A stretch of DNA of 64,000 nt from the NCBI GenBank assembly GCA_963576725.1, contig OY755237.1, forward strand, positions 57,635,805 through 57,699,804, read 5' to 3'. The notes under the pieces were generated by a model, which was not told the origin of the DNA, did no database searches, and saw only the letters and a list, made by a program, of their open reading frames with translations. Every line of letters begins with the position of its first letter. Position 1 is the stretch's first letter. Origin of the DNA: Azorinus chamasolen. Taxonomy: Eukaryota > Mollusca > Bivalvia > Cardiida > Solecurtidae. Below are positions 1 to 64,000 of the stretch, piece after piece. Both the position numbers and the translations under genes were made by a program.

Positions 1-643
1 ATAAAACAATTCATTAAAAAGGGATATGATCCTGTATTACTACAACATACTGCATGTTTGGTTGTGAACCCTTTTACAGTTGGCAATCACGCTGGCCTCT
101 TTGCATGTACGCCGACAAGAAAGGTTTAGTACTCTATGAAGGCGACCTCTTAAATCCAGAAATGGAAGGAGAACGTCGGATATCTGTACTATTTCATTTT
201 TGTCGTACCCTTTATTACTTTTCTACAGTTACTCTGTTTGCAGCTCAATCATTGAGTACAATAGCGATAGGTGGATACAGTATTTTCAATAAAATGTTGT
301 TGTTTTTTTTGTTATACATGCACTTTACCACTGTATTTGCTGTCGCGGTTGTTGTAGATTAGTCGGAGAGGGGATACGTTTATTTACACTGTTTGTCTTT
401 TAGGATGGGGATGGAATAAGGGTGAGGTTGGGCGCCCATAAACCGGTTTAAACCCCCGGTGACTTTTGTCACTGACCGTTCCAAGGCGGTACTTCCATCT
501 TCCTCCTATTGTATGTTTGTTTTGTCTTTGTGCGTCTCTTGTTGTTTTTTCTACCTATGTACATTTGCTGTTTCCTTGTGTTGCTGTTCGGGCGAGTGTT
601 TGTTCTGTATGTGGTGTTTCCTGCATGACTCATTTTTGTACTT
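1..643 (+). mobile_element. PLE fragment, subfamily 2 (C-terminus and 3' region)
   Basis: Starts at the window edge. The end of the ORF (1-129: GYDPVLLQHTACLVVNPFTVGN) is clearly related to the RT C-terminus at 56.3 kb, followed by a SECIS-like stem, the palindrome TAAACCGGTTTA, a GTGAC-tttt-GTCAC hairpin, and the 3' end CTCATTTTTGTACTT that marks this subfamily. Confidence 0.8.
128..190 (+). promoter_or_regulatory. SECIS-like element of diverged PLE subfamily
   Basis: AGTAC (128-132) pairs with GTACT (186-190). ATGA is at 136-139, AAA at 152-154 (12 nt between) and GA at 179-180. Helix II reads GGCG with CGTC instead of TGGTA with TACCA, so bases change on both sides while pairing is kept. 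The stop TAG (127-129) overlaps the stem, as in the young copies. Confidence 0.65.
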
Positions 644-3825: not shown

Positions 3826-3895
3826 GGCTTGGTGCACAACTATTCTAATTCCTTCACAAAGGGAAGGAGTTGGATTAGTTTTGCACCAAGCCCTC
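3826..3895. repeat. Imperfect 70-bp hairpin
   Basis: AGGGCTTGGTGCACAACTAT and GGATTAGTTTTGCACCAAGC...CCT are inverted partners over about 32 bp with a six-base loop. Confidence 0.7.
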
Positions 3896-4019
3896 GATAT
3901 GTAGTCATAGATGCTAAATTTGTAGCAAAATAGTTAATTCTTACAAATGAGGATAAGCTATGTTTTGAAATAAAAAAATCTTCTTAACAATATGATTGTA
4001 AATTGGTGACGTGAATTAC

Positions 4020-10784: not shown

Positions 10785-11461
10785 CAGTAGCAACGTCAAG
10801 CAGGCAAAGTCACATAGAAGACGCAACCACCACCAAAACAGTGATAGACAACATGTCACATACACACAACCACACACCCAAACACGCACACATGAGATGA
10901 ACACAAAAACACCAACAAAAACACAAGAGATAAACATTCCAAACATGAACGAAAACATGAACAAAGCAGAAGTATAAAGACACAAGACAAACAAAAGTAA
11001 GGGTGACAAAGCGAGTACCGCCTTGGAACGGTCAGTAGCCAAATCACCACTGGGGTTTAAACGGGTTTACGGACGTCATAGTCTCATACTCATCTCAACG
11101 TCACACTTATCTCAAGTACAAAAATGAGTCACCATAGCTTAACAAATAGTGTCAATAAAGGTATCTACGTCGGACTTTCCAACAACATAGAAGATGGTAA
11201 ACACATGATAATATGTAAAACATAACAACAAAATCCATCAAATATGTAATCAAAGACTTTGCTAAAGTCAGAGCAACTGCAGAAAAGTCGTTAAGGGCAC
11301 GTCAGGGAAAAAGTAATACATGAGTCTGGTAAGCTCATCCTGTTTCTGAGTTTAATAGTATACAATCATAGTGTATTACCAACGGCCTTTCATCGCGCAA
11401 ACAAGGAGGGAAGCGTAGCTACCGGTTGTAAAGGGATCAATAAGCAAACATGCAGTGCGTT
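10785..11461 (-). mobile_element. PLE 3' fragment, subfamily 1
   Basis: Minus strand from the ORF end through the SECIS-like stem and the GT-rich 3' tail. It terminates 18 bp from the EGF exon at 11480. Confidence 0.78.
11313..11379 (-). promoter_or_regulatory. SECIS-like element in older PLE fragment
   Basis: Minus strand: ATGA (11366-11369), 12 nt, AAA (11351-11353), GA (11325-11326). Helix I is GTAATAC with GTATTAC, turning the G-U pair of the young copies into A-U, a compensatory-type change. Confidence 0.65.
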
Positions 11462-23705: not shown

Positions 23706-24960
23706 TTCAGAGAGTACCGCCTTGGAACGGTTAGTGGTAAAACCACCACTGGGGATTTAAAACGATTCACGGACGTCCTAACCTCACACTTATCTCAAAG
23801 TCACCGTAGCTTAACAAACAGTGTAAATAAAGGTATCCCCGCCAGACTTCCCACAACATAGAAGACGGTAAACACAGGACAATATGTATAGCATAGCATT
23901 GCAACAACTGTGAGAATCCGTCAAATATGTACTGTACTCGATGGCTGATGTCATATCAACTGCAGGGAATCCGTTAAGAGCACGGCAGAGAAAAGACAAT
24001 ATAAGCCTGGTAAGCTCATCCGATTCCTGGGTTTAAGAGTATACCACCATAGAGTACTACCATCGGTCTGTCATCGTGCAAGCAAAGAGGAGGGAAGCAA
24101 GGCCACCGACAATAAAAGGGCCAATAATCAAGCATGCAGTGCGTTGCATTATAACGGGATCATAATCTTTCTTCCTAAACGTTTTAATGCGATTAATAAA
24201 CAAAGCATGACAATGGATATGACACTGAACTTTCCTGAGTTTGTAGATAATATCACCATAGAATCCTGGATGAGAAATACCTTGTTGAAGTAACGCCCTT
24301 AGATTGAAATTATATTTACTAATGAGAGGTACATTTCGATAAAAAATGAAAAAGCTCTCCAAATTTTGTGCTATCTGTAACCTTGCTTATGACTTTTTCA
24401 GTTATGATTAAATTACGACTATCGTCTAGCAAAGAACAGGCTCGGGCAAAGCGAATAGGTTGAGAAAAGTAAACCATAAGGTGTAGAATGGGGTGCATCT
24501 CCATCTAGAAAAGGATAATCAACAATTATGGAATTAAAATCTTCCCATTTATCGTATTTTTGTGATGGAACTTTATCATTTATGATGAAAGATTCAAATT
24601 CAAAAAGGAAGCAATGGATTCGCCTTATTTTATTCATTTTGGATAAATAGGAGAAACCATGGTTTCAAAATAAGGATTATCCAAAATCAAAATATCGTCT
24701 TAATACCTAGACATTTTATTAATAGTATAAACAGTATCAGCTTGTGTATCAGGTTTTCAACTTAGCATAACATCTCTCTCATAGCAATACAAAAAAAAAT
24801 CTGCAACAAAATCGGCACAGTTTGAACCCATAGGTGTACTAGCAACTTGACGATACATGGTATCCCCATATCTAAAAACATCAAGCCAAATCCACTTTGT
24901 GTAATGTTCAACTTCACAAGTTTGTTTGCAAATGGAAAATAGTTATTGTTTATTTCCAGA
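23706..24960 (-). mobile_element. Decayed PLE copy, subfamily 1
   Basis: Minus-strand remnants of RT and 3' region in at least three frames (FYRNVPLISKYNFNLRALL; QPIRFARACSLLDD; VKLLVHLWVQT). The SECIS core has mutated to ATGG and CAGG, so this copy is probably old and inactive. Confidence 0.8.
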
Positions 24961-28989: not shown

Positions 28990-29697
28990 TACATGTATGA
29001 GTCATGCAGGAAGCACCTCATACAAAACACACAACCGCCCGAACAGCTCCACGACAATAAAAAGCAAATGTACATACATATGAAAGACAGAAAGAGACGC
29101 ACAAAGACAACAAATAAACAAAAGAGGGAGATCGAAGTACCGCCATATAACGGTCAGTAACAAATTTCACTGGGACTTTAAACCGGTTTAGGGGCGACCA
29201 GTCTCATATTTATTCCACCCAACCCTAAAAGACAAACAGTGTAATTAAACGTATTTCCTCTCCGACTAATCTACAACAACCGCGATGACAAACACAGTGG
29301 TAAAGTGCATGTAAAACGGAAACATATTTAAGTGAAACAAGCTGTATCGACCTATCGCTAGTGTACTCAATGAGCTGCAAATAGAGTAACTGTAGAAACG
29401 TATTAAAGGATAGGACAAAAACGAAAACAAATATTGGACGTCCTCCTTCCGTTTCCGGATTTTAGAGGTTGTCTTCATAGAGTACTAAACCTTTCCTGTC
29501 GGCGTACATGCAAAAAGGGCACAGTAATTGCCACCTGTAAAAGGGGTGACAAACAGGCATGCATTATGTTGTAGTACCATAGGATCGTACCCCTTTTTAA
29601 TGAATTTGTAACGTATGTAGTAAACAAAGTGAGACAAAAGGTATGTCCAATAATTTTACGAAGTTTCTAAATCCCTTCACCATAAAACTCAGTCACC
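28990..29697 (-). mobile_element. PLE fragment, subfamily 2
   Basis: Minus strand; shares GAGTCATGCAGGAAGCAC end, TAAACCGGTTTA, and the GTACTCTATGAAGAC start of the 3' region. The 3' GA of the SECIS core is lost. Confidence 0.78.
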
Positions 29698-44934: not shown

Positions 44935-45108
44935 CTTTAATCCTGCATGTAGGAACAGTGTTACTCCAACTGCCATTCGCTAAGCAAACGAGAGAGGGGC
45001 TGCCGATTAGATCAAATCCTGTCTGACAAGAAATCGTCACATTTGTACCATATACCGTTATATCGGTTGAGGTCGAACCGTTTGTCGGAGGCAACAGGGA
45101 TCCACAAT
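44935..45108 (-). CDS. Type-A sushi exon
   Basis: 174-bp phase 1-1 exon: CGSLLPPTNGST, ISCQTGFDLIG, LVCLANGSW, VPTCRIK. Acceptor TTTACAG, donor GTCCGT. Confidence 0.85.
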
Positions 45109-45529
45109 CTGTAAAAAATGAATTTGATATGCGTATGAACTGGAATACTATATTTGGTAACATGATGCTGAACGTATGTTAACCATAAAATTTAATGTCC
45201 GGTTTAGGATTTTGATTTAATTTGACTCATATTTGTATTTGTGTTTATAGCATTTACAATGTGACAAATGAAGTCACATGACAATTTTCACTAACAAGTT
45301 GTATTGTATCTCTCTATTCTATATAATTGATTGCAGCTGCATGGGTTGCTTAAATGTTTGCAAGCATTTGTAAATAATTGAATACATAGGTTTTACAAAT
45401 TGTTTGACGCCATTATTCTAATAAATGTGAACAAGTTTTAAAAATAAATACCCTGACGGACACATCTCATCAGAAACCATAAACGTCAGGTTTAGGATTT
45501 TGATTTAATTTGACTTATATTTGTACTAT

Positions 45530-46072
45530 TAGTTATACAGATCATTGGCGGGGTATCTGACTTTTTGTTTCCTGCTGAGGAAATTCATCTTGCCGTGCCG
45601 TTAGGCGAGGGCTACATATATTTTCCTCAGCAGGGAAAGTCAGATATTCCGCCAAAAATCTGTATAACGATTTTATTATCCTGCAAAATTTAATTTTTGT
45701 GGCAGTTAATTAAAGGTGGTTTGGGGGCTAATCGGTACGTGCACAAGCACTTTGACAACATTTGCAGCATCAGAGCAGAAAAGCTTCGCCACGTATCGGG
45801 TTTATAACAAAAAAATATCTCAATGGATAACTTTGTTCAGACCCAAACTCTTATTTCGTTTGAGAGCGGTCGCTTGGATCGAATCGACGAATTGAATATG
45901 GTCGGCCATTTTTATTTTGGTGTATCAAGGAAGCGAGGCTCTCAACGGGGGAAATTCCATTGTTGCTCATGACTCAGTATATACATCAGACCTTAGAGGG
46001 ATACACGGCTTTTATACATGGCTAATTGACCACTCAAAATCGAGGATGTAACTTTGCAGTATAATAACTGTA
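45530..46072. mobile_element. Insertion with nested inverted repeats
   Basis: GTTATACAGATCATTGGCGG and CCGCCAAAAATCTGTATAAC are inverted partners (45533, 45653). A second pair, TATTATCCTGCAAAATT and AACTTTGCAGTATAATA, spans 45676-46070. The block interrupts an intron segment that is continuous in paralogous units (GTTTATAGCATTTACAATG). Confidence 0.65.
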
Positions 46073-46519
46073 TAGCATTTACAATGTGACAAATGGTTAC
46101 TGAAGTCATATGAGATTCGATGTAGACAATCTTCATTAACAATTTGTATTGTATCTCTCAATTCTATACAAGTGCTTGCAGCTGCATGGGTTGCTTAAAG
46201 TTTTGCAATCATTTTTCAACAATTATATCAATAGGTTTCACAAATTGTTTGACGCCATAATTCTAATAAATGTGAACAAGTTTTTAAATTACTACCATTA
46301 CTGCACTAAGGAATGTATTGCAGGTATTCCTAATAACGTTGTAGATACGGTTCTAGTGATCATTAATAAATTAATTCTAGATAACAAATAAAAAAATAAC
46401 TACAATTCTAATAATTGCTTATATGATGTATGTGTGCAGTGTTTAATCGATGCTAAGAATAAATATGATCACTGACACCTCATATACCAATCACATAAGA
46501 GTAACTAAACACGATGGAC

Positions 46520-46693
46520 CTTTTATCCTGCATGTAGGAACAGCGTTACTCCAACTGCCATTCGCTAAGCAAACGAGAGAGGGGCTGCCGATTAGATCAA
46601 ATCCTGTCTGACAAGATATCGTCACATTTGTACCATATACCGTTGTATTGGTTGAGGTAGAACCGTTTGTCGGACGCAACAGAGATCCACAAT
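46520..46693 (-). CDS. Type-A sushi exon
   Basis: 174-bp phase 1-1 exon: CGSLLRPTNGST, ISCQTGFDLIG, LVCLANGSW, VPTCRIK. In the transcript it is followed by another type-A exon (44935) with no type B seen between them, breaking the alternation. Confidence 0.85.
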
Positions 46694-47008
46694 CTGCAAA
46701 TAAAATGAGTTTGATATGCATATAAATTTGAAGACTATAATTGGTAACATGATGCTGAACGTATTTTAACCATAAATGTCAGGTTTAGGATTCCGATTAA
46801 ACTTATATTTATGGCATTTACAATGTGACAAATTGATACTGAAGTCATATGAGATTCTATGTAGAGAAACGTCAGTAACAATTTGTAAGTTTTTGCTACT
46901 ATTTGCTATCAACCGAATCAATAGGTTTTAAAAATTGTTTGACGCCATAATACTCATAAAAGCCAGTATGGACATATCTCATCAGAAGAGTATTCAATAT
47001 CCACGAAC

Positions 47009-47182
47009 CTTTAATTTGGCACATGGGAACAGTTTTACTCCAATTACCATTCGCTAAACACTCGATGGAGCTGCTACCGAGTAGGTCATAGCCAGCCAGA
47101 CAGGAATACATCACACTGGTCCCATATGTGGTCATAGAGTTAGAAATAAATCCGTTTGTCGGAACCATAAGCGATCCACAAT
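47009..47182 (-). CDS. Type-B sushi exon
   Basis: 174-bp phase 1-1 exon: CGSLMVPTNGF, YSCLAGYDLLG, IECLANGNW, VPMCQIK. Acceptor ATTTAG, donor GTTCGT. Confidence 0.86.
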
Positions 47183-47568
47183 CTAAATGGTTAAAGTTTA
47201 TCGTGATTTGGAAAACCATATTTTGCTAAACGATAAGTGTGCTAAACATGGATGAATGATATAGTGGGGATACAAAATTAGCCATTAGTAGAGGGGGAAA
47301 CAGATATTGACGTATTATGATGGTTGTTGTTTACTTACTGCACTAATGAATCTTTTCCGGGTATTCTTCATAATGTTGTATGTATATACACTTCTTATGG
47401 ACATTAATGAGTTAATTCTTGATAACAAATCAAATTAGAATTGGTTTAATTGGCCATTGTAATAATTATCTAAATGTTGTATGTGTGCAAAGTGTAATCG
47501 ATGTTAAGAATAACAATGATTACGAACATATCACACCAATCACATAAGAGCAATTAAACATGGCGGAC

Positions 47569-47742
47569 CTTTTATCCTGCATGTAGGAACAGGGTTACTC
47601 CAACTGCCATTCGCTAAGCAAACGAGAGAGGGACTGCCGATTAGATCAAATCCTGTCTGACAAGAAACCGTCACATTTGTACCATATACCGTTGTATTGG
47701 CTGAGGTTGAACCGTTTGTCGGAGGCAACAGAGATCCACAAT
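47569..47742 (-). CDS. Type-A sushi exon
   Basis: 174-bp phase 1-1 exon: CGSLLPPTNGST, VSCQTGFDLIG, LVCLANGSW, VPTCRIK. Acceptor TTGCAG, donor GTCCGC. Confidence 0.86.
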
Positions 47743-48111
47743 CTGCAAATTAAATGAATTGGATATGCATATGAAATGGAAGATTATAATTGTAAATATG
47801 ATGCTGAATATGTGTTGACCATAAATGTCAGGTTTAGGATTTCGATTTTTAAAAACTTGTATTTATGGCATTTACAATGTGACAAATGGATATTGAAGTC
47901 ATATGGGATTCTATGTAGACAAACGTCACTACCAATTTGTAATGTATATGTCAACTGCATAGGATGCTCACGTTTTTGCTATCCTTTGTTAAAAATTGAA
48001 TCAATAGGTTTTAAAAAAAATTGACGCCATTATACTCATAAATGTGAACAAGTTTAAAAATCGACAAATTAGGGACATATTTCATCAAAAGAGTATTCAA
48101 TATCCACGAAC

Positions 48112-48285
48112 CTTTAATACGGCACATGGGAACAGCTTTACTCCAATTACCATTCGCTAAACACTCGGTGGAGCTGCTACCGAGTAGGTCATAGCCAGCC
48201 AGACAGGAATACATCACACTGGTCCCATATGTGGTCATAGAGTTAGAAATAAATCCGTGTGTCGGAACCATAAGCGATCCACAAT
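48112..48285 (-). CDS. Type-B sushi exon
   Basis: 174-bp phase 1-1 exon: CGSLMVPTHGF, YSCLAGYDLLG, TECLANGNW, VPMCRIK. Acceptor ATTTAG, donor GTTCGT. Confidence 0.86.
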
Positions 48286-49142
48286 CTAAATGATTAAATT
48301 TTATCATGATTTGGAAAACTTTAATTTGCTAGACGATGAGTGCGGTAAAAATGATATAGTACTAATGCAAAATTGACCGTTACTAATATCTGCAAAATAG
48401 TGAGTCAGTTTCAGTACCGATTTCATACCTGCATCATGAGACGTATATTTGCCTTAACCCATTAGCCCCTGATAGAAAGGACTTCTTAAACATCTAAAAT
48501 AGAGTAGACCCTAACCAGGCAGCTCCTCTATGCGTCGTCTGATCATGATCTACTATATTAGATTATTTACGTACAGAAAAGGTATTATATTTCTACATGT
48601 CCTGCCATGGTAAACAATACTACGTTCATGTTCCATTAAAAATATCTTTTAATAAGTTAATGGATGTTCAATAATGTGATTATTTCTCAAAAGATAATTA
48701 TATAGCAGGTAGAGGGTTGAGGATAGTTGATTTACATCTTATGTTTCAAGTGTTCTGTTTCATGTGACACATTTACTGTAGAATGCTGAAAGGGGGCTGG
48801 TCGTAGGTAATGTTGGCCAAACTTGTGGCCCAACCCTTTTTCATGAAGTGATAATTATACAGAATAAAATATGTAAATAAATATACTAGAGTGGTAAACA
48901 GATATTGGTGTATTATGATGATTGTAACGTTTACATACTACACTAATAACTCTTTTCGAGGTATTCATAATAATATTGTCAATACAATTCTTATAATCAT
49001 TAATGAGTTGATTCTAGAAACAAAAAATCAAATTCGAATGTACCTATATGATGTATGTGTGCAGAGTGTAATCGATGTTAAGAATAAATATGACTACAGA
49101 CACATCACACACTTCACATATGAGCACTTAAACTCGGTGGAC

Positions 49143-49316
49143 CTTTTATCCTGCATGTAGGAACAGCGTTACTCCAACTGCCATTCGCTAAGCAAACGAG
49201 TGAGGGGCTGCCGATTAGATCAAATCCTGTCTGACAAGACAATGTCACATTTGTATCATATACTGTTATACTGGTCGAGGTAGAACCGTTTGTCGGAGGC
49301 AACAGAGATCCACAAT
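49143..49316 (-). CDS. Type-A sushi exon
   Basis: 174-bp phase 1-1 exon: CGSLLPPTNGST, LSCQTGFDLIG, LVCLANGSW, VPTCRIK. The intron upstream of it carries the inverted retroelement pair at 49592-51194. Confidence 0.86.
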
Positions 49317-49591
49317 CTGCAACAAAATCAATTTGATATGCATATGAACTGGAAATGTATAACTGGTAACATGATGCTGAACATAGGTTGACCATAAATA
49401 TCGGGTTTAGGATTTTGAAATAATTTGACTCATATTTGTATTTGTGTTTATAGCTTTAACATTTTGACAAATGGTTACTGAAGTCATATGATATTCTATG
49501 TAGACAATCTTCACTAACAATTTGTATTGTATCTTCCTATTCTTTATTCGTCCTTGCAGCTGTGTGGGTTGCTTAATTTGTTCAACCATTT

Positions 49592-50434
49592 GTTAACACA
49601 CACGAAATGAACACAGAAAACACCAAAATACACACAAGAAACAGGGACAAACGTTCCACAACATGAACAAACAACAAGCACAAAGACGCAAGGCAAACAA
49701 AAGGAAGGGTGACAAAGAGAGTACCGCCTTGGCACGGTCAGCAGCAAAAACACCACTGGGGGTTTAAACCGGTTTACGGACGTCCTAACCTCACACTTCT
49801 CTCAAAGTCACCCTAGCTTTACAAATATTGTAAATAAAGGTATCCCCGCTGGACTTACCCACAACATAGACGACGGTGAACACAGGACAACATGTAAAAC
49901 ATAGCATAATAACTGTGACAATCCGTCAAATATGTACTCAATGACTTTGCTGAAGTCAGAGCACCTGCAGGTAAGCCGTTAAGGGCACGACAGGGAAAAA
50001 GTAATACATGAGTCTGGTAAGCTCCTCCTGTATCCAAGTTTAAGAGTATACCATCATAGAGTACTACCCTCGGCCTGTCATCGCGCAAGCAAAGAGGGAA
50101 GCGTAGCTACCGACTGTAAAAGGGTCGATAACCAAACATGCAGTGTGTTGCAATATAATAGGATCATAACCTTTCTTTTTAAATGTTTTAATGCGTTTAA
50201 TAAACAAATCATGAAAATGGATATGACCCCGAATTTTCCTAAGTTTGTAGATAACATCCCCATAAAATTCTGGTTGAGAAATGCCTTGTCGCAGTAACGT
50301 CCGTAGATTGCAATTATATTTACTAATGAGAGGTAAATTTCGATAATAAAATTTAGAAAAGGTTTTCCGAAGTTTGTGATATCTGTAACCTTGCTTAAGA
50401 AGTTTATCAGTTATAACTAAATTATTGTGATGAA
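49592..50434 (-). mobile_element. PLE fragment, minus arm of an inverted pair
   Basis: Minus-strand RT C-terminus (SKYNCNLRTLLRQGISQPEF), ORF end, SECIS-like stem and 3' region, close to the young copies at 54-56 kb. Its 5' end abuts the plus-strand arm at 50435. Confidence 0.82.
50001..50067 (-). promoter_or_regulatory. SECIS-like element in inverted PLE fragment
   Basis: On the minus strand the same ATGA, 12-nt, AAA, GA core and both helices are retained (GTACTAC at 50061, GTAATAC at 50001 on the plus strand). Confidence 0.68.
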
Positions 50435-51194
50435 ATCTACAAACTTTGTAAAAATTGGGATTATATCCATTTCCATTATTTGTTTATAAAACGCATTCAC
50501 ACCTTTAAGAAGGAAGATTATGACCCCATTATATTGCAACGCACTGCATGTTTGGTTATTGACCCCTTTACAGTCGGTTGCTACGCTTCCCTCTTTGCTT
50601 GCGCGATGACAGCGCGAGGGTAGTACTCTATGATGGAATAATCTTAAACTCAGAAACGGAATGGGCATACTGGACTCATGTATTACATTTTCCCTGTCGT
50701 GCCCTTAACGGCTTCCCTGCAATTGCTCTGAATTCAGCAAAGTCATTGAGAACATATTTGACGGGGTTTTCGCAGTTGTTTTGCTATGTTTTACATACTG
50801 TCATGTGTTTACCGTCTTCTATGTTGTCGGAAAGTCCGGCAGGGATACCTTTATTTACACTATTCGTTAAGCTAGGCTGACTTTGAGATAAGTGTGAGGT
50901 TAGGACGTACGTAAACCGGTTTAAACCCCAATGCTGATTTTGCTACTGACCTTTCCAAGGCGGCACTCTCTTTGTAACCCTTACTTTTGATTGTCCTGTG
51001 TCTTTTTACTTGTGCTTTAGTTCATGTTTGGAATGTTTATCTGTGGTGCTTTTGTGTTTGTTGGTGTTTCTGTGTTCATCTTATGTGTGTATGTTTGTGT
51101 GTGTGGTTGTGTGTGTGTGAGTGGTGCTGTGTTATATCGGTGGTTTGGTGGTAGTTGTGTGTGTGGCTTTGCCTGCTTGACTTTACTACTGTTT
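50435..51194 (+). mobile_element. PLE fragment, plus arm of an inverted pair
   Basis: Plus-strand ORF end (IILQRTACLVIDPFTVGCYASLFAC) and full 3' region to GACTTTACTACTGTTTGATT. The SECIS helix II is less well paired than in the other arm. Flanks TTGTTAACA and TTAACAATTG suggest a short target duplication. Confidence 0.8.
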
Positions 51195-51320
51195 GATTAA
51201 CAATTGAATCAATAGGATTTAAAATTGTTTGACACTATAATACTCATAATTGTGAACAAGTTTTAAAACCAATACCATTACGGACACATTTCATCAGAGG
51301 TGTATTCAATATCCACGAAC

Positions 51321-51494
51321 CTTTAATTTGGCACATGGGAACAGCTTTACTCCAATTACCATTCGCTAAGCACTCGGTGGAGCTGCTACCGAGTAGGTCA
51401 TAGCCACCAAGACAGGAATACAACACAGTGGTCCCATATGTGGTCATAGTGTTAGACATAAATCCGTTTGTCGGAACCATAAGCAATCCACAAT
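51321..51494 (-). CDS. Type-B sushi exon
   Basis: 174-bp phase 1-1 exon: CGLLMVPTNGF, YSCLGGYDLLG, TECLANGNW, VPMCQIK. A retroelement fragment is inserted only about 14 bp upstream of its acceptor, so the natural branch-point region is displaced and a pyrimidine-rich element end now sits there. Confidence 0.84.
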
Positions 51495-51508
51495 CTAAAT
51501 GATTAAAA

Positions 51509-51848
51509 GTACAAAAATGAGTCATGCATGAAACACCACATACAGAACAAACACTCGCCCGAACAGCAACACAAGGAAACAGCAAATGTACATAACTATA
51601 AAAACATCAAGAGACGCACAAAGACAAAACAAACATACAATAGGAGAAGATGGACGTACCGCATTGGAACGGTCAGTGACAAAAGTCACTGGGGGTTAAA
51701 CTGGTTTATGTGCGCCCAACCTCACACTTATTCCATCCCCACCCTAAAAGACAAACAGTGTAAATAAACGTATCCCCTCTCCGACTAATCTACAACAACC
51801 GGGAAGGCAAATACAGTGGTAAAGTGCATGTATAACGAAACAACAAAC
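51509..51848 (-). mobile_element. PLE 3' fragment, subfamily 2
   Basis: Minus-strand AGTACAAAAATGAGTCATGC to AACAAACTGTATA. The paralogous unit sequence TCTAAATAATTAAAGTTTG without insertion (about 57850) shows the insertion point. Confidence 0.8.
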
Positions 51849-52524
51849 TGTATAAAGTTTGTTGTGATTTGAAAAACTATAATTTGCCACTTGAAGAGTG
51901 CGGTAAACATGGATGATATAGTTTAAAGGCAAAACTGGTCCTTTTTTGCATTAACCCTTGACCTGAGAGAGAGGACTTCTCAAACATCTTAAACAGATTC
52001 GACCCTGACCAGACAGCTCCTCTAGGAGTCGTCTGATCATGATCTACTATATTAGCTTATTTACGTACAGAAAAAGTGTTATATTTCTACATGTCCTGCC
52101 ATGGTAAACAATACTTCGTTCATGTACCATTATAAATATTTTTTAATAAGTTAATGGATGTTCATGAATGTCATTAATTCTCAAAAGATAATTATATAGC
52201 AGGTAGAGGGTTGAGGATGGTTGATTTACATTTTATGTTTCATATGTTCTGCTTCATGTGGCACATTTGCTGTAGAATGTTGCAAGGAGGATGGCCGTAA
52301 TTAATGTTGGGTCAAACTTGTGGCTAAACCCTTTTTCATGAAGTGATATATAAAATAAATATGTAAATAAATATACCAAAGGAGTAAACATATATTGATG
52401 TATTATGATGATTGTAACGTTTACATACTACAGCGACTCTTTTCGAGTTATTCATAATAACGTTGTAAATACACATCTTATTATCATTAATGAGTTAATT
52501 CTTGATAATAAATCAAATTTGTAT

Positions 52525-54223
52525 ATTAAAAACTAGGTTTCGTCATACAGGACATTCTTTCAAATATGTTTCGGTTCAACCAGTAGAACAAATTTATTAT
52601 GATTCTAAAACTACTGGTAGTTTAAAATCTAAAGCTCGTTTCATCACAGAGCTAGACTGGATAAAGAAATTACAAACACCTTTTCCTTTAGGCCTTAATG
52701 ATAACATTTTCCAAAGCGGCAATATTTCTAAAGATCCAAGTATCGACATTTTCTCTATATTTTCTATTCGAAAACGTAAAAGTAGATCACATGGCAGACG
52801 TAGAAATGGTAATATTAAGCGTAAATTACGTCGTAATATGTCTATTCATGATTTACATACTATTCTAAAACAAACTGGTAAACATTCTATGTTATCTTGT
52901 TTATCGTCTTTACCCTTTTCCTGTCTTAAGTCAATAGACGAAGAGGCTGATAAAATCTATATGCGTACAGATCCGTTAATTAATACTGCCTCACTTATAC
53001 AAAGTTACACACAGCATGTTCTTCGTCCACGTATTGATAAAGAATCTGAACATAAGAGACATTTTCTGAAACTTCAGTTCCTAAATAAAGGTATCGATTT
53101 TATTGATATTCAAAGTATAGTTCGTGATAAGAATGTAATCGATGCTATTCCCAAATATTTCATCAACTCTGAATCACCTATCATCTGTTATAAATATAAT
53201 AAACCTATTAGAAATGTTATTTTGAACTACAATAAAATTGTCTCTGACTTAAATATTGATGTTAATACCCCTATTTCTTGAGATTGTAGCATTTCTAGCT
53301 TTTGCTATAAACCAGTTGGTCATGTCATTACTGGTAATTTTGATATCATTAAGGATAAACGTCTCAGGACCCTCCTAACTAAAGGACCTAAATATAGATT
53401 ACCTTCCCTTATTGATTTTGACGCTTGTCGAACTCATATTGCGGAAGCTATTCAAGAATTCTGCATCAAATGGTGTCGACGAGAACATGCTGATGTTAAT
53501 GCCCTTTCGGATTGGAAGAAATGTATTTTTCGTAATAAAACTTCAAGGTATTTAGACGATATTTTGAATTTAGATAATCCTTATTTTGATACTATGGTTT
53601 CTTCAATCTACCCAAAAGAACTGTCTTTAAACAAAGCTAATCAATCTGACATTAATGCTTCATTTTTAGATTTGAATCTTTCAATTACAAATGATAAAGT
53701 TTCGTCCAAAGTATACGATAAAAGAGAAGATTTTAATTTTAAAATTGTTAATTATCCTTTTCTAGATGGGGATGTGCCACGTTCTACATCTTATGGTGTT
53801 TATATTTCTCAACTTATTAGGTTTGCCCGAGCCTGTTCTTTGCTTGAAGATTTTAACAGACGTAATTTAGTTATAACTGATAAACTTCTTAAGCAAGGTT
53901 ACAGATATCACAAACTTCGGAAAACCTTTTCTAAATTTTATTATCGAAATTTACCTCTCATTAGTAAATATAATTGCAATCTACGGACGTTACTGCGACA
54001 AGGCATTTCTCAACCAGAATTTTATGGGGATGTTATCTACAAACTTAGGAAAATTCGGGGTCATATCCATTTTCATGATTTGTTTATAAAACGCATTAAA
54101 AAAATTAAAAAGAAAGGTTATGATCCTATTATATTGCAATACACTGCATGTTTGGTTATCGATCCTTTTACAGTCGGTAACTACGCTTCCCTCTTTGCTT
54201 GCGCGATGACAGGCCGAGGGTAG
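52525..54223 (+). pseudogene. PLE copy 1: GIY-YIG remnant, linker with UGA, RT C-terminus
   Basis: Open from the 5' truncation to the stop TAG except for one TGA at 53279-53281. The first residues (FRHTGHSF ... FITELDWIKKLQTPFPLGLND) match the C-terminal half of PLE GIY-YIG endonucleases, including the glutamate before LDWIKKL and the HxxxH pair. A basic stretch (RKRKSRSHGRRR) follows. The TGA sits in S-[TGA]-D-C-S, before SFCYKPVGHVITG, where related elements appear to have CxC. After WKKCIFRN the sequence jumps to KTSRYLDDIL, deleting the RT fingers and palm, with microhomology AATAAAAC and frame kept. Confidence 0.8.
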
Positions 54224-54286
54224 TACTCTATGATGGTATACTCTTAAACTTGGATACAGGAGGAGCTTACCAGACTCATGTATTAT
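54220..54286 (+). promoter_or_regulatory. SECIS-like element of PLE copy 1
   Basis: Same structure as in copy 2: ATGA at 54230-54233, AAA at 54246-54248, GA at 54273-54274. One base in helix I changes a G-C to a G-U pair. Confidence 0.7.
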
Positions 54287-54811
54287 TTTTTCCCTGTCGT
54301 GCCCTTAACGGCTTACCTGCAGGTGCTCTGACTTCAGCAAAGCCATTGAGTACATATTTGACGGATTGTCACAGTTATTATGCTATGTTTTACATGTTGT
54401 CCTGTGTTCACCGTCGTCTATGTTGTGGGTAAGTCCAGCGGGGATACCTTTATTTACAATATTTGTAAAGCTAGGGTGACTTTGAGAGAAGTGTGAGGTT
54501 AGGACGTCCGTAAACCGGTTTAAACCCCCAGTGGTGTTTTTGCTGCTGACCGTGCCAAGGCGGTACTCTCTTTGTCACCCTTCCTTTTGTTTGCCTTGCG
54601 TCTTTGTGCTTGTGGTTTGTTCATGTTGTGGAACGTTTGTCCCTGTTTCTTGTGTGTCCTTTGGTGTTTTCTGTGTTCATTTCGTATGTGTGTGTGCGTG
54701 TGCGTTTGGGTGTGTGGTTGTGTGTGTGTGTGTCATGCTGTCTATCGGTGTTTTGGTGGTGGTTGCGTCTTGCATGTGGCTTTGCCTGCTTGACTTTACT
54801 ACTTTTCCATT

Positions 54812-56440
54812 ATTGATACACGAATAACTTTTTACAAATCAAATAACCATCTTTTACCACCTCGACCTAGAGTTACATTTCGCTACTTGAAGAAAAACAT
54901 TTCTAATTTTCATTCAGATTATGTTCTTGTTCCTGCTGACAAGGCATCAAACAATGTAATCATTATTTGAAGATTGTATTATGTTGATGTTTTAAAGAAG
55001 GAGCTAACTGATTCAAAAACTTATATAACAGTTCAAACACCTGAAAAAGATATAGTCTCGGAACATGTAAAAATGTGCAATGATTTTAAGTCTGGTCCTA
55101 ACATAAAACAACATAAACTTTCTACTTTGTACTGGATTCCGAAAGTACATAAAAACCCTTATAAGTCGCGTTTTATTGCCAACTCTAGCTGTTGTACCAC
55201 TACTAAATTATCTATACTTTTGACGTCCTGTCTTACTACGATCAAAGAACATGTTAAACGCTACTGTGATAAAATATATGAAAATTCTGGTATTAATGTT
55301 TTTTGGTCCATAAAAAATTCAAATGATGTTTTAACAAAACTTGAAAATGAACAGTATAACATTTCTTTACTGAGCTCTTATGATTTCTCTACACTCTATA
55401 CTACTCTACCTCACCATCTTATAAATGATAGACTTATTAAATTAATAGAAAAAACCTTTGCCAGAGAAAACAAAATGTTCATTGCTTGTAATGTTCAACG
55501 TTCATTCTTTTCGAATTCAGAAGTTGAACATTACACAATGTGGACTTGCCTTGATGTTTGTAGATCTCTTACCTTTCTTTTAGATAATATATTTGTGCGT
55601 TATGGAGATACCATATATCGTCAAGTTGTTGGTATACCCATGGGTACAAATTGTGCCCCTCTTGTTGCAGATTTGTTTTTGTATTGCTACGAGAGGGATT
55701 TTATGCTTAGCTTAAAACCTGATACACAGACCGATATTGTTAATGCTTTTAATAAAACTTCAAGGTATTTAGACGATATTTTGAATTTAGATAATCCTTA
55801 TTTTGATACTATGGTTTCTTCAATCTACCCAAAAGAACTGTCTTTAAACAAAGCGAATCAATCTGACATTAATGCTTCATTTCTAGATTTGAATCTTTCA
55901 ATTACAAATGATAAAGTTTCGTCCAAAGTATACGATAAAAGAGAAGATTTTAATTTTAAAATTGTTAATTATCCTTTTCTAGATGGGGATGTGCCACGTT
56001 CTACATCTTATGGTGTTTATATTTCTCAACTTATTAGGTTTGCCCGAGCCTGTTCTTTGCTTGAAGATTTTAACAGACGTAATTTAGTTATAACTGATAA
56101 ACTTCTTAAGCAAGGTTACAGATATCACAAACTTCGGAAAACCTTTTCTAAATTTTATTATCGAAATTTACCTCTCATTAGTAAATATAATTGCAATCTA
56201 CGGACGTTACTGCGACAAGGCATTTCTCAACCAGAATTTTATGGGGATGTTATCTACAAACTTAGGAAAATTCGGGGTCATATCCATTTTCATGATTTGT
56301 TTATAAAACGCATTAAAAAAATTAAAAAGAAAGGTTATGACCCTATTATATTGCAACACACTGCATGTTTGGTTATCGACCCTTTTACAGTCGGTAACTA
56401 CGCTTCCCTCTTTGCTTGCGCGATGACAGGCCGATGGTAG
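54812..56440 (+). CDS. PLE copy 2: reverse transcriptase with in-frame UGA
   Basis: One frame runs from the 5' junction to TAG at 56438, broken only by TGA at 54968-54970 (VPADKASNNVIII-[TGA]-RLYYVDVL), where related elements appear to have cysteine. RT motifs are intact: YDFSTLYT (motif A aspartate), VGIPMGTNCAPLVADLF (motif B), RYLDDIL (motif C), SFLDLNLSI (motif D), and FLDGDVPRSTSYGVYISQL in the thumb region. The order and spacing are those of Penelope-like RTs, relatives of telomerase. The protein ends shortly after the thumb with no C-terminal endonuclease. The 488 codons after the TGA are uninterrupted. Confidence 0.85.
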
Positions 56441-56503
56441 TACTCTATGATGGTATACTCTTAAACTTGGATACAGGAGGAGCTTACCAGACTCATGTAT
56501 TAC
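56437..56503 (+). promoter_or_regulatory. SECIS-like element of PLE copy 2
   Basis: Helix I is GTAGTAC (56437) with GTATTAC (56497), seven pairs including one G-U. After a small internal loop come ATGA (56447-56450), helix II TGGTA..CTCTT with GGGAG-like and TACCA partners, exactly 12 nt from ATGA to AAA at the 5' side of the apical loop (56463-56465), and GA (56490-56491). This is the eukaryotic SECIS layout. The stop TAG lies inside helix I. Folding was done by eye. Confidence 0.72.
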
Positions 56504-57143
56504 TTTTTCCCTGTCGTGCCCTTAACGGCTTACCTGCAGGTGCTCTGACTTCAGCAAAGTCATTGAGTACATATTTGACGGATTGTCACAGTTATTATGC
56601 TATGTTTTACATGTTGTCCTGTGTTCACCGTCGTCTATGTTGTGGGTAAGTCCAGCGGGGATACCTTTATTTACAATATTTGTAAAGCTAGGGTGACTTT
56701 GAGAGAAGTGTGAGGTTAGGACGTCCGTAAACCGGTTTAAACCCCCAGTGGTGTTTTTGCTGCTGACCGTGCCAAGGCGGTACTCTCTTTGTCACCCTTC
56801 CTTTTGTTTGCATTGCGTCTTTGTGCTTGTGGTTTGTTCATGTTGTGGAACGTTTGTCCCTGGTTCTTGTGTGTCTTTTGGTGTTTTCTGTGTTCATTTC
56901 GTGTGTGTGTGTGTGTGCGTGTGCGTTTGGGTGTGTGGTTGTGTGTGTGTGTCATGCTGTCTATCGGTGTTTTGGTGGTGGTTGCGTCTTGCATGTGGCT
57001 TTGCCTGCTTGACTTTACTACTTTTCCATTTAGTTCACCATTCTAATAATTTTCTATATGATGTATGTGTGCAGAGTTCAATCGGTGTTAAGAATAAATA
57101 TGATTACGGACACATCACATAAGAACACTTAAACTCGGCGGAC

Positions 57144-57317
57144 CTTTTATCCTGCATGTAGGAACAGTGTTACTCCAACTGCCATTCGCTAAGCAAACGA
57201 GAGAGCGACTGCCGATTAGATCAAATCCTGTCTGACAAGAAATCGCCACATTTGTACCATATACCGTTATATTGGTTGAGGTAGAACCGTTTGTCGGGGG
57301 CAACAGAGATCCACAAT
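57144..57317 (-). CDS. Type-A sushi exon, array unit 1
   Basis: 174-bp phase 1-1 exon: CGSLLPPTNGST, ISCQTGFDLIG, LVCLANGSW, VPTCRIK. Acceptor TTTGCAG, donor GTCCGC. The upstream intron holds the 4.5-kb retroelement pair. Confidence 0.88.
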
Positions 57318-57675
57318 CTGCAAAACAAATGAATTTTATATGCATATGAACTGAAATACTATTTTTGGTAACATGATGCTGAAGATATGTTAACCATAAA
57401 TATCAGGTTTAGGATTTTTATTTAATTTGACTCATATTTGTACTTGTGTTATAGCTTTAACAATGTGACAAATAGTTACTGAAGTCATATGAGATTCTAT
57501 GTAAACAATATTCACTAACAATTTGTATTGTATCACTCTATTCTATATAAGAGTTTGCAGCTGCAATGGGTTTTACAAACTGTTTGACGCCATAATTCTA
57601 ATAAATGTGAACAAGTTTGAAAATCAGTACCCTTTCGAACACATCTCATCAGAAGGATATTCAATATCCACGAAC

Positions 57676-57849
57676 CTTTAATTTGGCACCCGGGAACAGC
57701 TTTACTCCAATTACCATTCGCTAAACACTCAGTGGAGCTGCTACCGAGTAGGTCATAGCCAGCCAGACAGGAATACATCACACTGGTCCCATATGTGGTC
57801 ATAGAGTTAGAAATAAACCCATTTGTCGGAACCATAAGTGATCCACAAT
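57676..57849 (-). CDS. Type-B sushi exon, array unit 1
   Basis: 174-bp phase 1-1 exon: CGSLMVPTNGF, YSCLAGYDLLG, TECLANGNW, VPGCQIK. Acceptor ATTTAG, donor GTTCGT. Confidence 0.88.
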
Positions 57850-58713
57850 CTAAATAATTAAAGTTTGTCGTGATTTGAAAAAAAACTATAATTTGCCACT
57901 TGATAAGTGCGGTAAACATGGATGGTATATTTCAAATGCAAAATTGGTCCTTACTAGTATCTGGAAAATATTATCAGCTTAAGTACAGATTTCATTTTTG
58001 CATCATGAAATGTATATTTGCATTAACCCTTTACCTGATAGAGAGGACTTCTCAAACATCTAAAACAGATTCGACCCTGACCAGACATCTCCACTAGGAG
58101 TCGTCTGATCATGATCTACTATATTAGCTTATTTACGTACAGAAAAAGTGTTATATTTCTACATGTCCTGCCATGGTAAACAATACTTCGTTCATGTACC
58201 ATTATAAATATTTTTTAATAAGTTAATGGATGTTCATTAATGTCATTAATTCTCAAAAGATAATTATATAGCAGGTAGAGGGTTGAGGATGGTTGATTTA
58301 CATTTCCTGTTTCATATGTTCTGCTTCATCTGGCACATTTGCTGTAGAATGTTGCAAGGAGGATGGCCGTAACTAATGTTGGTCAAACTTGTGGCCAAAC
58401 CCTTTTTCATGAAGTGTTAAATAAAATAAATATGTAAATATATATACCAAAGGAGTAAACATATACTGATGTATTATGATGATTGTAACGTTTACATACT
58501 ACCGCGACTCTTTTCGAGTTATTCATAATAACGTTGTAAATACACATCTTATTATCATTAATGAGTTAATTCTTGATAATAAATCAAATTTGTATGTGTT
58601 TAGTTCACCATTCTAATAATTTTCTATATGATGTATGTGTGCAGAGTTCAATCGGTGTTAAGAATAAATATGATTACGGACACATCACATAAAAACACTT
58701 AAACTCGGCGGAC

Positions 58714-58887
58714 CTTTTATCCTGCATGTAGGAACAGTGTTACTCCAACTGCCATTCGCTAAGCAAACGAGAGAGGGACTGCCGATTAGATCAAATCCTG
58801 TCTGACAAGAAATCGCCACATTTGTACCATATACCGTTATATTGGTTGAGGTAGAACCGTTTGTCGGGGGCAACAGAGATCCACAAT
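58714..58887 (-). CDS. Type-A sushi exon, array unit 2
   Basis: Same protein as the unit 1 type-A exon except GSPS for GSRS. 174 bp, phase 1-1. Confidence 0.88.
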
Positions 58888-59245
58888 CTGCAAAACAAAT
58901 GAATTTTATATGCATATGAACTGAAATACTATTTTTGGTAACATGATGCTGAACATATGTTAACCATAAATATCAGGTTTAGGATTTTTATTTAATTTGA
59001 CTCATATTTGTACTTGTGTTATAGCTTTAACAATGTGACAAATAGTTACTGAAGTCATATGAGATTCTATGTAATCAATATTCACTAACAATTTGTATTG
59101 TATCACTCTATTCTATGTAAGAGTTTGCAGCTGCAATGGGTTTTTCAAACTGTTTGACGCCATAATTCTAATAAATGTGAACAAGTTTGAAAATCAGTAC
59201 CCTTTCGAACACATCTCATCAGAAGGGTATTCAATATCCACGAAC

Positions 59246-59419
59246 CTTTAATTTGGCACCCGGGAACAGCTTTACTCCAATTACCATTCGCTAAACACTC
59301 AGTGGAGCTGCTACCGAGTAGGTCATAGCCAGCCAGACAGGAATACATCACACTGGTCCCATATGTGGTCATAGAGTTAGAAATAAACCCGTTTATCGGA
59401 GCCATAAGCGATCCACAAT
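59246..59419 (-). CDS. Type-B sushi exon, array unit 2
   Basis: 174 bp, phase 1-1. Starts CGSLMAPINGF rather than CGSLMVPTNGF; the rest is identical to unit 1. Confidence 0.88.
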
Positions 59420-60284
59420 CTAAATAATTAAAGTTTGTCGTGATTTGAAAAAAACCCTAATTTGCCACTTGATGAGTGCGGTAAACATGGACGATATATT
59501 TCAAATGCAAAATTGGTCCTTACTAGTATCTGGAAAATATTGTCAGCTTAAGTACAGATTTCATATTTGCATCATGAAATGTATATTTGCATTAACCCTT
59601 TACCTGATAGAGAGGACTTCTCAAACATCTTAAACAGATTCGACCCTGACCAGACATCTCCTCTAGGAGTCGTCTGATCATGATCTACTATATTAGCTTA
59701 TTTACGTACAGAAAAAGTGTTATATTTCTACATGTCCTGCCAATGGTAAACAATACTTCGTTCATGTACCATTATAAATATTTTTTTAATAAGTTAATGG
59801 ATGTTCATGAATGTCATTAATTCTCAAAAGATAATTATATAGCAGGTAGAGGGTTGAGGATTGTTGATTTACATTTTATGCTTCATATGTTCTGCTTCAT
59901 GTGGCACATTTGCTGTAGAATGTTGCAAGGAGGATGGCCGTAACTAATGTTGGTCAAACTTGTGGCCAAACCCTTTTTCATGAAGTGTTAAATAAAATAA
60001 ATATGTAAATATATATACCAAAGGAGTAAACATATACTGATGTATTATGATGATTGTAACGTTTACATACCACCGCGACTCTTTTCGAGTTATTCATAAT
60101 AACGTTGTAAATACACATCTTATTATCATTAATGAGTTAATTCTTGATAATAAATCAAATTTGTATGTGTTTAGTTCACCATTCTAATAATTTTCTATAT
60201 GATGTATGTGTGCAGAGTTCAATCGGTGTTAAGAATAAATATGATTACGGACACATCACATAAAAACACTTAAACTCGGCGGAC

Positions 60285-60458
60285 CTTTTATCCTGCATGT
60301 AGGAACAGTGTTACTCCAACTGCCATTCGCTAAGCAAACGAGAGAGGGACTGCCGATTAGATCAAACCCTGTCTGACAAGAAATCGCCACATTTGTACCA
60401 TATACCGTTATATTGGTTGAGGTAGAACCGTTGGTCGGGGGCAACAGAGATCCACAAT
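60285..60458 (-). CDS. Type-A sushi exon, array unit 3
   Basis: 174 bp, phase 1-1, exactly 1571 bp from the unit 2 copy. Near-identical; the PPTN segment reads PPTNG with a ccaacgg codon change (forward gttggtcgg). Confidence 0.88.
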
Positions 60459-60816
60459 CTGCAAAACAAATGAATTTTATATGCATATGAACTGAACTAC
60501 TATTTTTGGTAACATGATGCTGAACATATGTTAACCATAAATATCAGGTTTAGGATTTTTATTTAATTTGACTCATATTTGTACTTGTGTTATAGCTTTA
60601 ACAATGTGACAAATAGTTACTGAAGTCATATGAGATTCTATGTAATCAATATTCACTAACAATTTGTATTGTATCACTCTATTCTATGTAAGAGTTTGCA
60701 GCTGCAATGGGTTTTTCAAACTGTTTGACGCCATAATTCTAATAAATGTGAACAAGTTTGAAAATCAGTACCCTTTCGAACACATCTCATCAGAAGGGTA
60801 TTCAATATCCACGAAC

Positions 60817-60990
60817 CTTTAATTTGGCACCCGGGAACAGCTTTACTCCAATTACCATTCGCTAAACACTCAGTGGAGCTGCTACCGAGTAGGTCATAGC
60901 CAGCCAGACAGGAATACATCACACTGGTCCCATATGTGGTCATAGAGTTAGAAATAAACCCGTTTATCGGAGCCATAAGCGATCCACAAT
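60817..60990 (-). CDS. Type-B sushi exon, array unit 3
   Basis: 174 bp, phase 1-1, 1571 bp from the unit 2 copy, with the same predicted protein. Confidence 0.88.
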
Positions 60991-61855
60991 CTAAATAATT
61001 AAAGTTTGTCGTGATTTGAAAAAAACCCTAATTTGCCACTTGATGAGTGCGGTAAACATGGACGATATATTTCAAATGCAAAATTGGTCCTTACTAGTAT
61101 CTGGAAAATATTGTCAGCTTAAGTACAGATTTCATATTTGCATCATGAAATGTATATTTGCATTAACCCTTTACCTGATAGAGAGGACTTCTCAAACATC
61201 TTAAACAGATTCGACCCTGACCAGACATCTCCTCTAGGAGTCGTCTGATCATGATCTACTATATTAGCTTATTTACGTACAGAAAAAGTGTTATATTTCT
61301 ACATGTCCTGCCAATGGTAAACAATACTTCGTTCATGTACCATTATAAATATTTTTTTAATAAGTTAATGGATGTTCATGAATGTCATTAATTCTCAAAA
61401 GATAATTATATAGCAGGTAGAGGGTTGAGGATTGTTGATTTACATTTTATGCTTCATATGTTCTGCTTCATGTGGCACATTTGCTGTAGAATGTTGCAAG
61501 GAGGATGGCCGTAACTAATGTTGGTCAAACTTGTGGCCAAACCCTTTTTCATGAAGTGTTAAATAAAATAAATATGTAAATATATATACCAAAGGAGTAA
61601 ACATATACTGATGTATTATGATGATTGTAACGTTTACATACCACCGCGACTCTTTTCGAGTTATTCATAATAACGTTGTAAATACACATCTTATTATCAT
61701 TAATGAGTTAATTCTTGATAATAAATCAAATTTGTATGTGTTTAGTTCACCATTCTAATAATTTTCTATATGATGTATGTGTGCAGAGTTCAATCGGTGT
61801 TAAGAATAAATATGATTACGGACACATCACATAAAAACACTTAAACTCGGCGGAC

Positions 61856-62029
61856 CTTTTATCCTGCATGTAGGAACAGTGTTACTCCAACTGCCATTCG
61901 CTAAGCAAACGAGAGAGGGACTGCCGATTAGATCAAACCCTGTCTGACAAGAAATCGCCACATTTGTACCATATACCGTTATATTGGTTGAGGTAGAACC
62001 GTTGGTCGGGGGCAACAGAGATCCACAAT
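61856..62029 (-). CDS. Type-A sushi exon, array unit 4
   Basis: 174 bp, phase 1-1, 1571 bp from unit 3, with the same predicted protein. Confidence 0.88.
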
Positions 62030-62387
62030 CTGCAAAACAAATGAATTTTATATGCATATGAACTGAACTACTATTTTTGGTAACATGATGCTGAACATAT
62101 GTTAACCATAAATATCAGGTTTAGGATTTTTATTTAATTTGACTCATATTTGTACTTGTGTTATAGCTTTAACAATGTGACAAATAGTTACTGAAGTCAT
62201 ATGAGATTCTATGTAATCAATATTCACTAACAATTTGTATTGTATCACTCTATTCTATGTAAGAGTTTGCAGCTGCAATGGGTTTTTCAAACTGTTTGAC
62301 GCCATAATTCTAATAAATGTGAACAAGTTTGAAAATCAGTACCCTTTCGAACACATCTCATCAGAAGGGTATTCAATATCCACGAAC

Positions 62388-62561
62388 CTTTAATTTGGCA
62401 CCCGGGAACAGCTTTACTCCAATTACCATTCGCTAAACACTCAGTGGAGCTGCTACCGAGTAGGTCATAGCCAGCCAGACAGGAATACATCACACTGGTC
62501 CCATATGTGGTCATAGAGTTAGAAATAAACCCGTTTATCGGAGCCATAAGCGATCCACAAT
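62388..62561 (-). CDS. Type-B sushi exon, array unit 4
   Basis: 174 bp, phase 1-1, 1571 bp from unit 3, with the same predicted protein. Confidence 0.88.
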
Positions 62562-63426
62562 CTAAATAATTAAAGTTTGTCGTGATTTGAAAAAAAACCT
62601 AATTTGCCACTTGATGAGTGCGGTAAACATGGACGATATATTTCAAATGCAAAATTGGTCCTTACTAGTATCTGGAAAATATTGTCAGCTTAAGTACAGA
62701 TTTCATATTTGCATCATGAAATGTATATTTGCATTAACCCTTTACCTGATAGAGAGGACTTCTCAAACATCTTAAACAGATTCGACCCTGACCAGACATC
62801 TCCTCTAGGAGTCGTCTGATCATGATCTACTATATTAGCTTATTTACGTACAGAAAAAGTGTTATATTTCTACATGTCCTGCCAATGGTAAACAGTACTT
62901 CGTTCATGTACCATTATAAATATTTTTTTAATAAGTTAATGGATGTTCATGAATGTCATTAATTCTCAAAAGATAATTATATAGCAGGTAGAGGGTTGAG
63001 GATTGTTGATTTACATTTTATGCTTCATATGTTCTGCTTCATGTGGCACATTTGCTGTAGAATGTTGCAAGGAGGATGGCCGTAACTAATGTTGGTCAAA
63101 CTTGTGGCCAAACCCTTTTTCATGAAGTGTTAAATAAAATAAATATGTAAATATATATACCAAAGGAGTAAACATATACTGATGTATTATGATGATTGTA
63201 ACGTTTACATACCACCGCGACTCTTTTCGAGTTATTCATAATAACGTTGTAAATACACATCTTATTATCATTAATGAGTTAATTCTTGATAATAAATCAA
63301 ATTTGTATGTGTTTAGTTCACCACTCTAATAATTTTCTATATGATGTATGTGTGCAGAGTTCAATCGGTGTTAAGAATAAATATGATTACGGACACATCA
63401 CATAAAAACACTTAAACTCGGCGGAC

Positions 63427-63600
63427 CTTTTATCCTGCATGTAGGAACAGTGTTACTCCAACTGCCATTCGCTAAGCAAACGAGAGAGGGACTGCCGATT
63501 AGATCAAACCCTGTCTGACAAGAAATCGCCACATTTGTACCATATACCGTTATATTGGTTGAGGTAGAACCGTTGGTCGGGGGCAACAGAGATCCACAAT
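63427..63600 (-). CDS. Type-A sushi exon, array unit 5
   Basis: 174 bp, phase 1-1, 1571 bp from unit 4, with the same predicted protein. Confidence 0.88.
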
Positions 63601-63958
63601 CTGCAAAACAAATGAATTTTATATGCATATGAACTGAAATACTATTTTTGGTAACATGATGCTGAACATATGTTAACCATAAATATCAGGTTTAGGATTT
63701 TTATTTAATTTGACTCATATTTGTACTTGTGTTATAGCTTTAACAATGTGACAAATAGTTACTGAAGTCATATGAGATTCTATGTAATCAATATTCACTA
63801 ACAATTTGTATTGTATCACTCTATTCTATGTAAGAGTTTGCAGCTGCAATGGGTTTTTCAAACTGTTTGACGCCATAATTCTAATAAATGTGAACAAGTT
63901 TGAAAATCAGTACCCTTTCGAACACATCTCATCAGAAGGGTATTCAATATCCACGAAC

Positions 63959-64000
63959 CTTTAATTTGGCACCCGGGAACAGCTTTACTCCAATTACCAT
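63959..64000 (-). CDS. Type-B sushi exon, array unit 5 (cut by window edge)
   Basis: The donor GTTCGT and the last 14 codons of a type-B exon are visible before the window ends, so the array continues to the right. Confidence 0.85.

Follow-up and report, generated by a model that had tools for sequence, protein, structure and literature searches.

A SECIS-like hairpin overlapping the stop codon of a Naiad-like Penelope retroelement in the bivalve Azorinus chamasolen

Known selenoprotein systems and the present locus

Selenoproteins that contain several selenocysteines (Sec) are reportedly encoded by Naiad elements of spiders and clams (Craig, Yushenova, Rodriguez and Arkhipova 2021), and Mix, Lobanov and Gladyshev (2007) are said to have studied a fowlpox virus GPx4 whose open reading frame (ORF) contains the SECIS. 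The element analyzed here presumably shares with these selenoprotein Naiads the organization of a Penelope-like element (PLE) with an N-terminal endonuclease, a CxC linker and multiple Sec residues. According to passages in a review and in a further paper, the fowlpox virus GPx4 SECIS lies inside the ORF and is functional in mammalian cells (PMC6769590, PMC7409322), and a SECIS in translated sequence is therefore workable. The likeness to the present locus is a eukaryotic-type SECIS within translated sequence; the difference is that the viral SECIS is internal to the coding region of a GPx4 homologue (PMC6769590, PMC7409322), whereas the one reported here straddles the terminator of a retroelement.

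Our literature search, which covered titles and the beginnings of abstracts and few subscription papers, revealed no retroelement-encoded selenoprotein, and the four passages that matched a search for a SECIS overlapping a stop codon contain no description of such an overlap. The element class with Sec has probably been described already, and the overlap with the stop is probably a notable and mainly new detail; as selenoprotein jumping genes are seemingly known, the new part is mainly the placement of the hairpin. If the 2021 Naiad paper already reports such an overlap, the present case is a further example.

The analyzed window is the whole stretch of 64,000 nucleotides from contig OY755237.1 of A. 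chamasolen. Our preferred interpretation, to which we assign a probability of about 0.9, is that a hairpin at the end of a reverse transcriptase (RT) ORF in this window is the SECIS of a Naiad-like Penelope retrotransposon, in the ORF of which at least two UGA codons are decoded as Sec. The two proposed Sec sites are the first Cys of the CxC motif and the Cys that follows a PADKAxNN motif. Four of its parts are directly observed: the fold of the hairpin, compensatory changes across two subfamilies of the element in the window, the correspondence of the UGA codons to conserved Cys residues, and the position of the hairpin across the stop codon. An earlier note on this DNA had proposed that a mobile selenoprotein gene carries a SECIS that overlaps its stop codon, and this is the best-supported reading.

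The retroelement, its copies and its relatives

The RT of the element was found by tblastn at several places in the window. Two copies, delimited by tblastn and boundary comparison, are arranged head to tail on the forward strand as a partial tandem that resembles a pseudo-LTR, copy A at 52525..54811 and copy B at 54812..57028 (the ends of the latter being approximate by a few bases). Copy B is 5'-truncated and contains an RT ORF of 488 residues that closes at the UAG codon 56438-56440 and is followed by a 3' UTR with a TG-rich tract. Copy A lacks an internal part of the RT and starts within the C-terminal portion of the endonuclease region, at a place that aligns with the endonuclease end of the relatives P0145 and P0197. 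By Pfam, the window's own pieces contain no RT or endonuclease domain, the matches at E 1 or better being two sub-cut-off DUFs. In the relatives where it is recognized, the endonuclease is N-terminal, with the GIY-YIG domain at residues 87-120 in P0150, 86-169 in P0197, 103-138 in P0206 and 250-338 in P0145, and with RVT_1 downstream of it in P0150 and P0206; an N-terminal endonuclease is the Naiad arrangement. The linker between the endonuclease and the RT carries UDC in the window and a CxC consensus in the relatives. The host of the hairpin is a Naiad-like Penelope element.

Naiad-type elements have an insertion bias for microsatellites; at the single insertion point considered here, the host unit in its intact form carries no more than GTGT. 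Copies A and B are inserted in a tandem host repeat, which occupies positions 57029-64000 and about 45000-52524, has a unit of about 1571 bp with right-hand copies that are 97-99% identical, and encodes a Sushi (SCR) domain (PF00084) at 57533-57919 on the reverse strand. At 49596-51105, the 3' ends of two elements meet head to head, one inverted (49596-50435) and one a direct fragment (50423-51105), and this is a complex inverted insertion. Positions 3822-3896 form an inverted repeat that matches the Rfam mir-548 family on both strands with 42 and 34.9 bits (cut-off 90), and our guess is a MITE-like palindrome, not a microRNA.

Searches with the protein and with an alignment revealed no relative in viral contigs, and no match was found in plasmids. 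The contig search yielded three loci from bacterial metagenome-assembled genomes (MAGs), L001 (Gammaproteobacteria CS3), L002 (Bathymodiolus symbiont) and L003 (Candidatus Thioglobus), and a scan of all three gave no SECIS match up to E 10. Related PLE RTs are encoded at L001 226-1614 and at L002 4834-5170, and L002 and L003 contain short RT pieces only; the RTs of L001 and L002 are probably eukaryotic sequence binned with bacteria. One relative, P0097, comes from a MAG named Candidatus Thiodiazotropha endolucinida, presumably a symbiont of lucinid clams.

The hairpin at the end of the ORF and its conservation

Copy B has the longest RT ORF of the copies in the window; its hairpin occupies the 67 bases at 56437..56503 on the forward strand and was delineated by minimum free energy (MFE) folding, the Rfam SECIS_1 model and covariation. 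Its MFE structure is that of a form-2 eukaryotic SECIS (-20.3 kcal/mol, z -3.15, with an equally good fold in 1 of 200 shuffles). Helix I pairs 56437-56443 with 56497-56503 in seven pairs, including one G-U. Between helix I and helix II lies the quartet, composed of AUGA at 56447..56450 and the facing GA at 56490..56491, both located by our descriptor and by copy comparison, the former also directly in the sequence. The arm from AUGA to the unpaired AAA (56463..56465, placed by the fold) is 12 nt long, and in eukaryotic SECIS elements an unpaired AA is expected 10-13 nt after AUGA. The AAA is a bulge beneath a 4-bp apical helix, as in form 2, and the arm comprises 5 bp, a 2x2 internal loop and 5 bp, the internal loop in helix II being a point against the SECIS reading. 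The AUGA, the 12-nt spacing, the AA, the GA opposite AUGA and the seven-pair lower helix are all found where the earlier note had placed them, and the UAG that it had assigned to the lower helix does sit in helix I. Two of its details need revision: its 12-nt helix holds as an arm length but is not one continuous helix, and the AA that it had put at the 5' side of the apical loop is present as AAA but is bulged below the apical helix.

The Rfam model SECIS_1 (RF00031) matches 56439-56501 from end to end, with the same core and small apical helix, but the window scores under the curated cut-off, with 23.2 bits for copy B and 26.0 bits for the copy at 127..192 vs. a gathering score of 35. With an E value for copy B of 1.2 in a 14-kb scan and 5.3 in a 64-kb scan, this score would not by itself establish the SECIS. 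The 64-kb scan gave 12 matches to any family at E 10 or better; four of them are to SECIS_1, and all four lie at ORF ends of the element on its sense strand. Three of these are near-identical copies and therefore count as one lineage, and the fourth (128-190, 26.0 bits) belongs to a subfamily that is ~67% identical over the 3' region. Our own SECIS descriptor recovered the three near-identical copies and one unrelated match (47771) in the 64-kb window, and did not recover the diverged copy at 128; its background was 0.52 matches per shuffled window on average (both strands, 60 shuffles, maximum 3). The argument against chance rests on the position of the matches at ORF ends of the element and on the covariation between copies, and a chance hairpin was judged unlikely for these two reasons. 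The absence of a SECIS score above background, which the earlier note had named as evidence against its proposal, was encountered in part, because the Rfam score is below the curated cut-off.

Eight copies in the window have the ORF end followed by the hairpin region, and a ninth (around 9811) diverges before the hairpin. According to Rfam, folding and copy comparison, the hairpin is intact, with UAG in helix I, in copy A (54220..54286, forward strand) and in the inverted copy (50001..50067, reverse strand). The hairpin of the diverged subfamily (127..192, forward strand), identified by SECIS_1 and by its fold, keeps 19 of 21 pairs with compensatory changes. Folding and copy comparison further distinguished two decayed regions that retain the core letters and have lost the fold (50620..50686 on the forward strand, and 11312..11378 on the reverse strand with UAA as its stop) and one that has lost the GA (AA instead) and partly retains the fold (29423..29488, reverse strand). 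The homologous region at 23993..24059 on the reverse strand, characterized by tblastn and folding, has lost the core (AUGG, GG), and its RT matches fall in several frames. The SECIS structure is thus the MFE fold in four of the eight copies (those at 56437, 54220, 50067 minus and 127) and not in the other four (50620, 11378 minus, 24059 minus and 29488 minus), all of them decayed and two of them without some of the core letters. The eight copies end their ORFs with seven UAG codons, one UAA and no UGA, i.e. with a terminator other than the codon to be recoded.

The eight copies provide seven distinct rows for a covariation alignment with 21 pairs and 143 cells. Of these cells 84.6% pair, vs. 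38.7-47.7% when partners are slid by one to three columns, and both sides have changed in 6 of the 21 pairs. None of 500 shuffles reached the observed covariation score, percentage paired or number of doubly changed cells, and 12 of 500 reached the number of doubly changed pairs; the fifth measure, which counts further pair types, does not exceed the shuffles (390/500 reach it). With seven distinct rows, the signal is mostly one split, between two subfamilies. The structure of the hairpin is conserved by compensatory change. Loss of the core in young copies, the second outcome that would have counted against the earlier proposal, is not what we observed, since the three near-identical copies (97.8-98.4% over the 3' region) all keep both core and fold; the copies without the fold are more diverged than these three.

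A conserved hairpin in the 3' part of such an element could also serve another step of its cycle, such as template recognition by the RT, and merely resemble a SECIS. The PLE RT must recognize its own RNA, and both this requirement and the 3' location of the hairpin would fit such a role, but it is in the SECIS core that the letters are best preserved (AUGA in 7 of 8 copies, AAA in 8 of 8, GA in 6 of 8), and the ORF needs Sec decoding, which together make this explanation very improbable.

In-frame UGA codons at conserved cysteine positions

Alignment with relatives placed two in-frame UGA codons, both on the forward strand, at conserved Cys positions, as expected of a selenoprotein gene. The first (53279..53281) is in copy A, where reading UGA as Sec gives the end of a GIY-YIG-like region followed by ...VNTPIS-U-DCS..., and falls on the first of the two CxC cysteines (UDC). 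The second (54968..54970) is in copy B, where the same reading gives ...VPADKASNNVIII-U-RLYYVDV... followed by the RT, and corresponds to a residue that is Cys in most relatives. No copy in the window has both UGA codons and the hairpin.

In the alignment of the best 120 of 163 matches, the first UGA column contains 79 C, 12 W, 2 Y and 1 L among 94 letters (26 gaps), and the second 96 C, 15 W, 1 L and 1 S among 113 (7 gaps). The simplest explanation of the W residues is that a gene finder decoded UGA as Trp, although some could be genuine UGG codons; the W of P0073 in the first column and that of P0177 in the second, which stand among gaps, are probably misaligned. Among the 120 RT relatives listed of 3042, the protein starts one or two residues past the second UGA site in 23 and within 12 residues past it in 46, with nothing upstream. 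Starts just past this site would be expected from a predictor that halts at UGA, and the other starts vary and lie later. In the GIY-YIG endonuclease region of relative P0131, W stands at what look like two further conserved Cys positions, so that this relative may have four selenocysteines.

Alternatively, the copies could be dead and the UGA codons nonsense mutations in them, with a hairpin that arose by chance or has decayed. The truncation of the window copies, the sub-threshold SECIS_1 score and the RT matches of some copies that are found only across several frames are all compatible with decay. Decay leaves unexplained, however, that the two UGA codons are the only in-frame stops before UAG in the coding parts read of copies A and B, that both fall at conserved Cys positions where most relatives have C or W, and that the hairpin covaries. 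Nonsense decay was judged unlikely on account of the correspondence of the UGA codons to Cys columns of the family, and this alternative as a whole appears very improbable.

With the hairpin taken as a SECIS, and by analogy with established selenoprotein biology, SBP2 would bind the quartet and recruit eEFSec and Sec-tRNA to the upstream UGA codons, the distance from the UGA at 54968 to the AUGA being about 1.48 kb. The true terminator would be UAG or UAA, which the Sec machinery would not recode.

Overlap of the hairpin with the terminator and its implications

In copy B, sequence and fold together place the UAG (56438..56440, forward strand) within helix I. Eight codons on, the frame meets its next stop, a UAA (56462-56464) that uses two of the three apical A residues. 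We surveyed ORF ends in 232 relative proteins, 100 of which fit our own pattern for a conserved F-x-C near the end. Of these 100, 44 share the end of the window ORF, six residues after F-x-C, and 31 run on to 14 residues after it, exactly to the position of the window UAA; the evidence is indirect, as the relatives' tails come from proteins, many belong to close kin, and the hairpin of the 44 early-stopping relatives is presumed. In the remaining 25 the end falls at other places, and P0227, at least, has no genuine C-terminus of this type. All 31 of the 14-residue tails have a (D/G)xM-x motif. In the 33 tails that fit our own (D/G/H)xM-x pattern, the residue after Met is M in 27, T in 3, and N, K and I in one each; all of these residues have A-initial codons, so that AUGA would be kept while the protein changes (33/33 tails). 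The survey points to a family-wide overlap of hairpin and ORF end, with two stop placements inside the hairpin. The C-terminal part of P0054 used as a homologue query found 14 proteins and added little.

The SECIS could be real and its overlap with the stop incidental, the UAG being one of two alternative ends of an ORF that in relatives continues as far as the apical UAA site. This would be a variant of the main interpretation and is compatible with it; the UAA on the apical AA as the next in-frame stop, and the 44 and 31 relatives that stop as the window does or eight codons later, speak for it, but both stops lie inside the hairpin, so that an overlap exists either way. We consider an incidental overlap a serious possibility that falls somewhat short of an even chance. 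Another proposal is that SECIS and terminator form one evolved unit in this PLE lineage, with an overlap that is regular in the family and with two stops, the first in helix I and the second a UAA made with the apical AA, every terminating ribosome opening the SECIS and thereby coupling termination to Sec recoding. We regard this proposal as doubtful. The overlap may be a 'compact design', as the earlier note suggested.

With the hairpin acting as a SECIS, each terminating ribosome would melt helix I and probably the AUGA side too. Since helix I, and probably AUGA, would be masked while a ribosome stands on the UAG, the hairpin would have to refold before the next ribosome arrives. A signal at the end of the ORF also stays in 3' fragments, and 5'-truncated copies therefore carry the SECIS too.

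The use of Sec in a selfish element would tie its spread to the selenium of the host and to the host Sec machinery. A SECIS that shares its bases with a stop, perhaps in two ways among the relatives, would provide a natural test of how a terminating ribosome and SBP2 coexist on one RNA.
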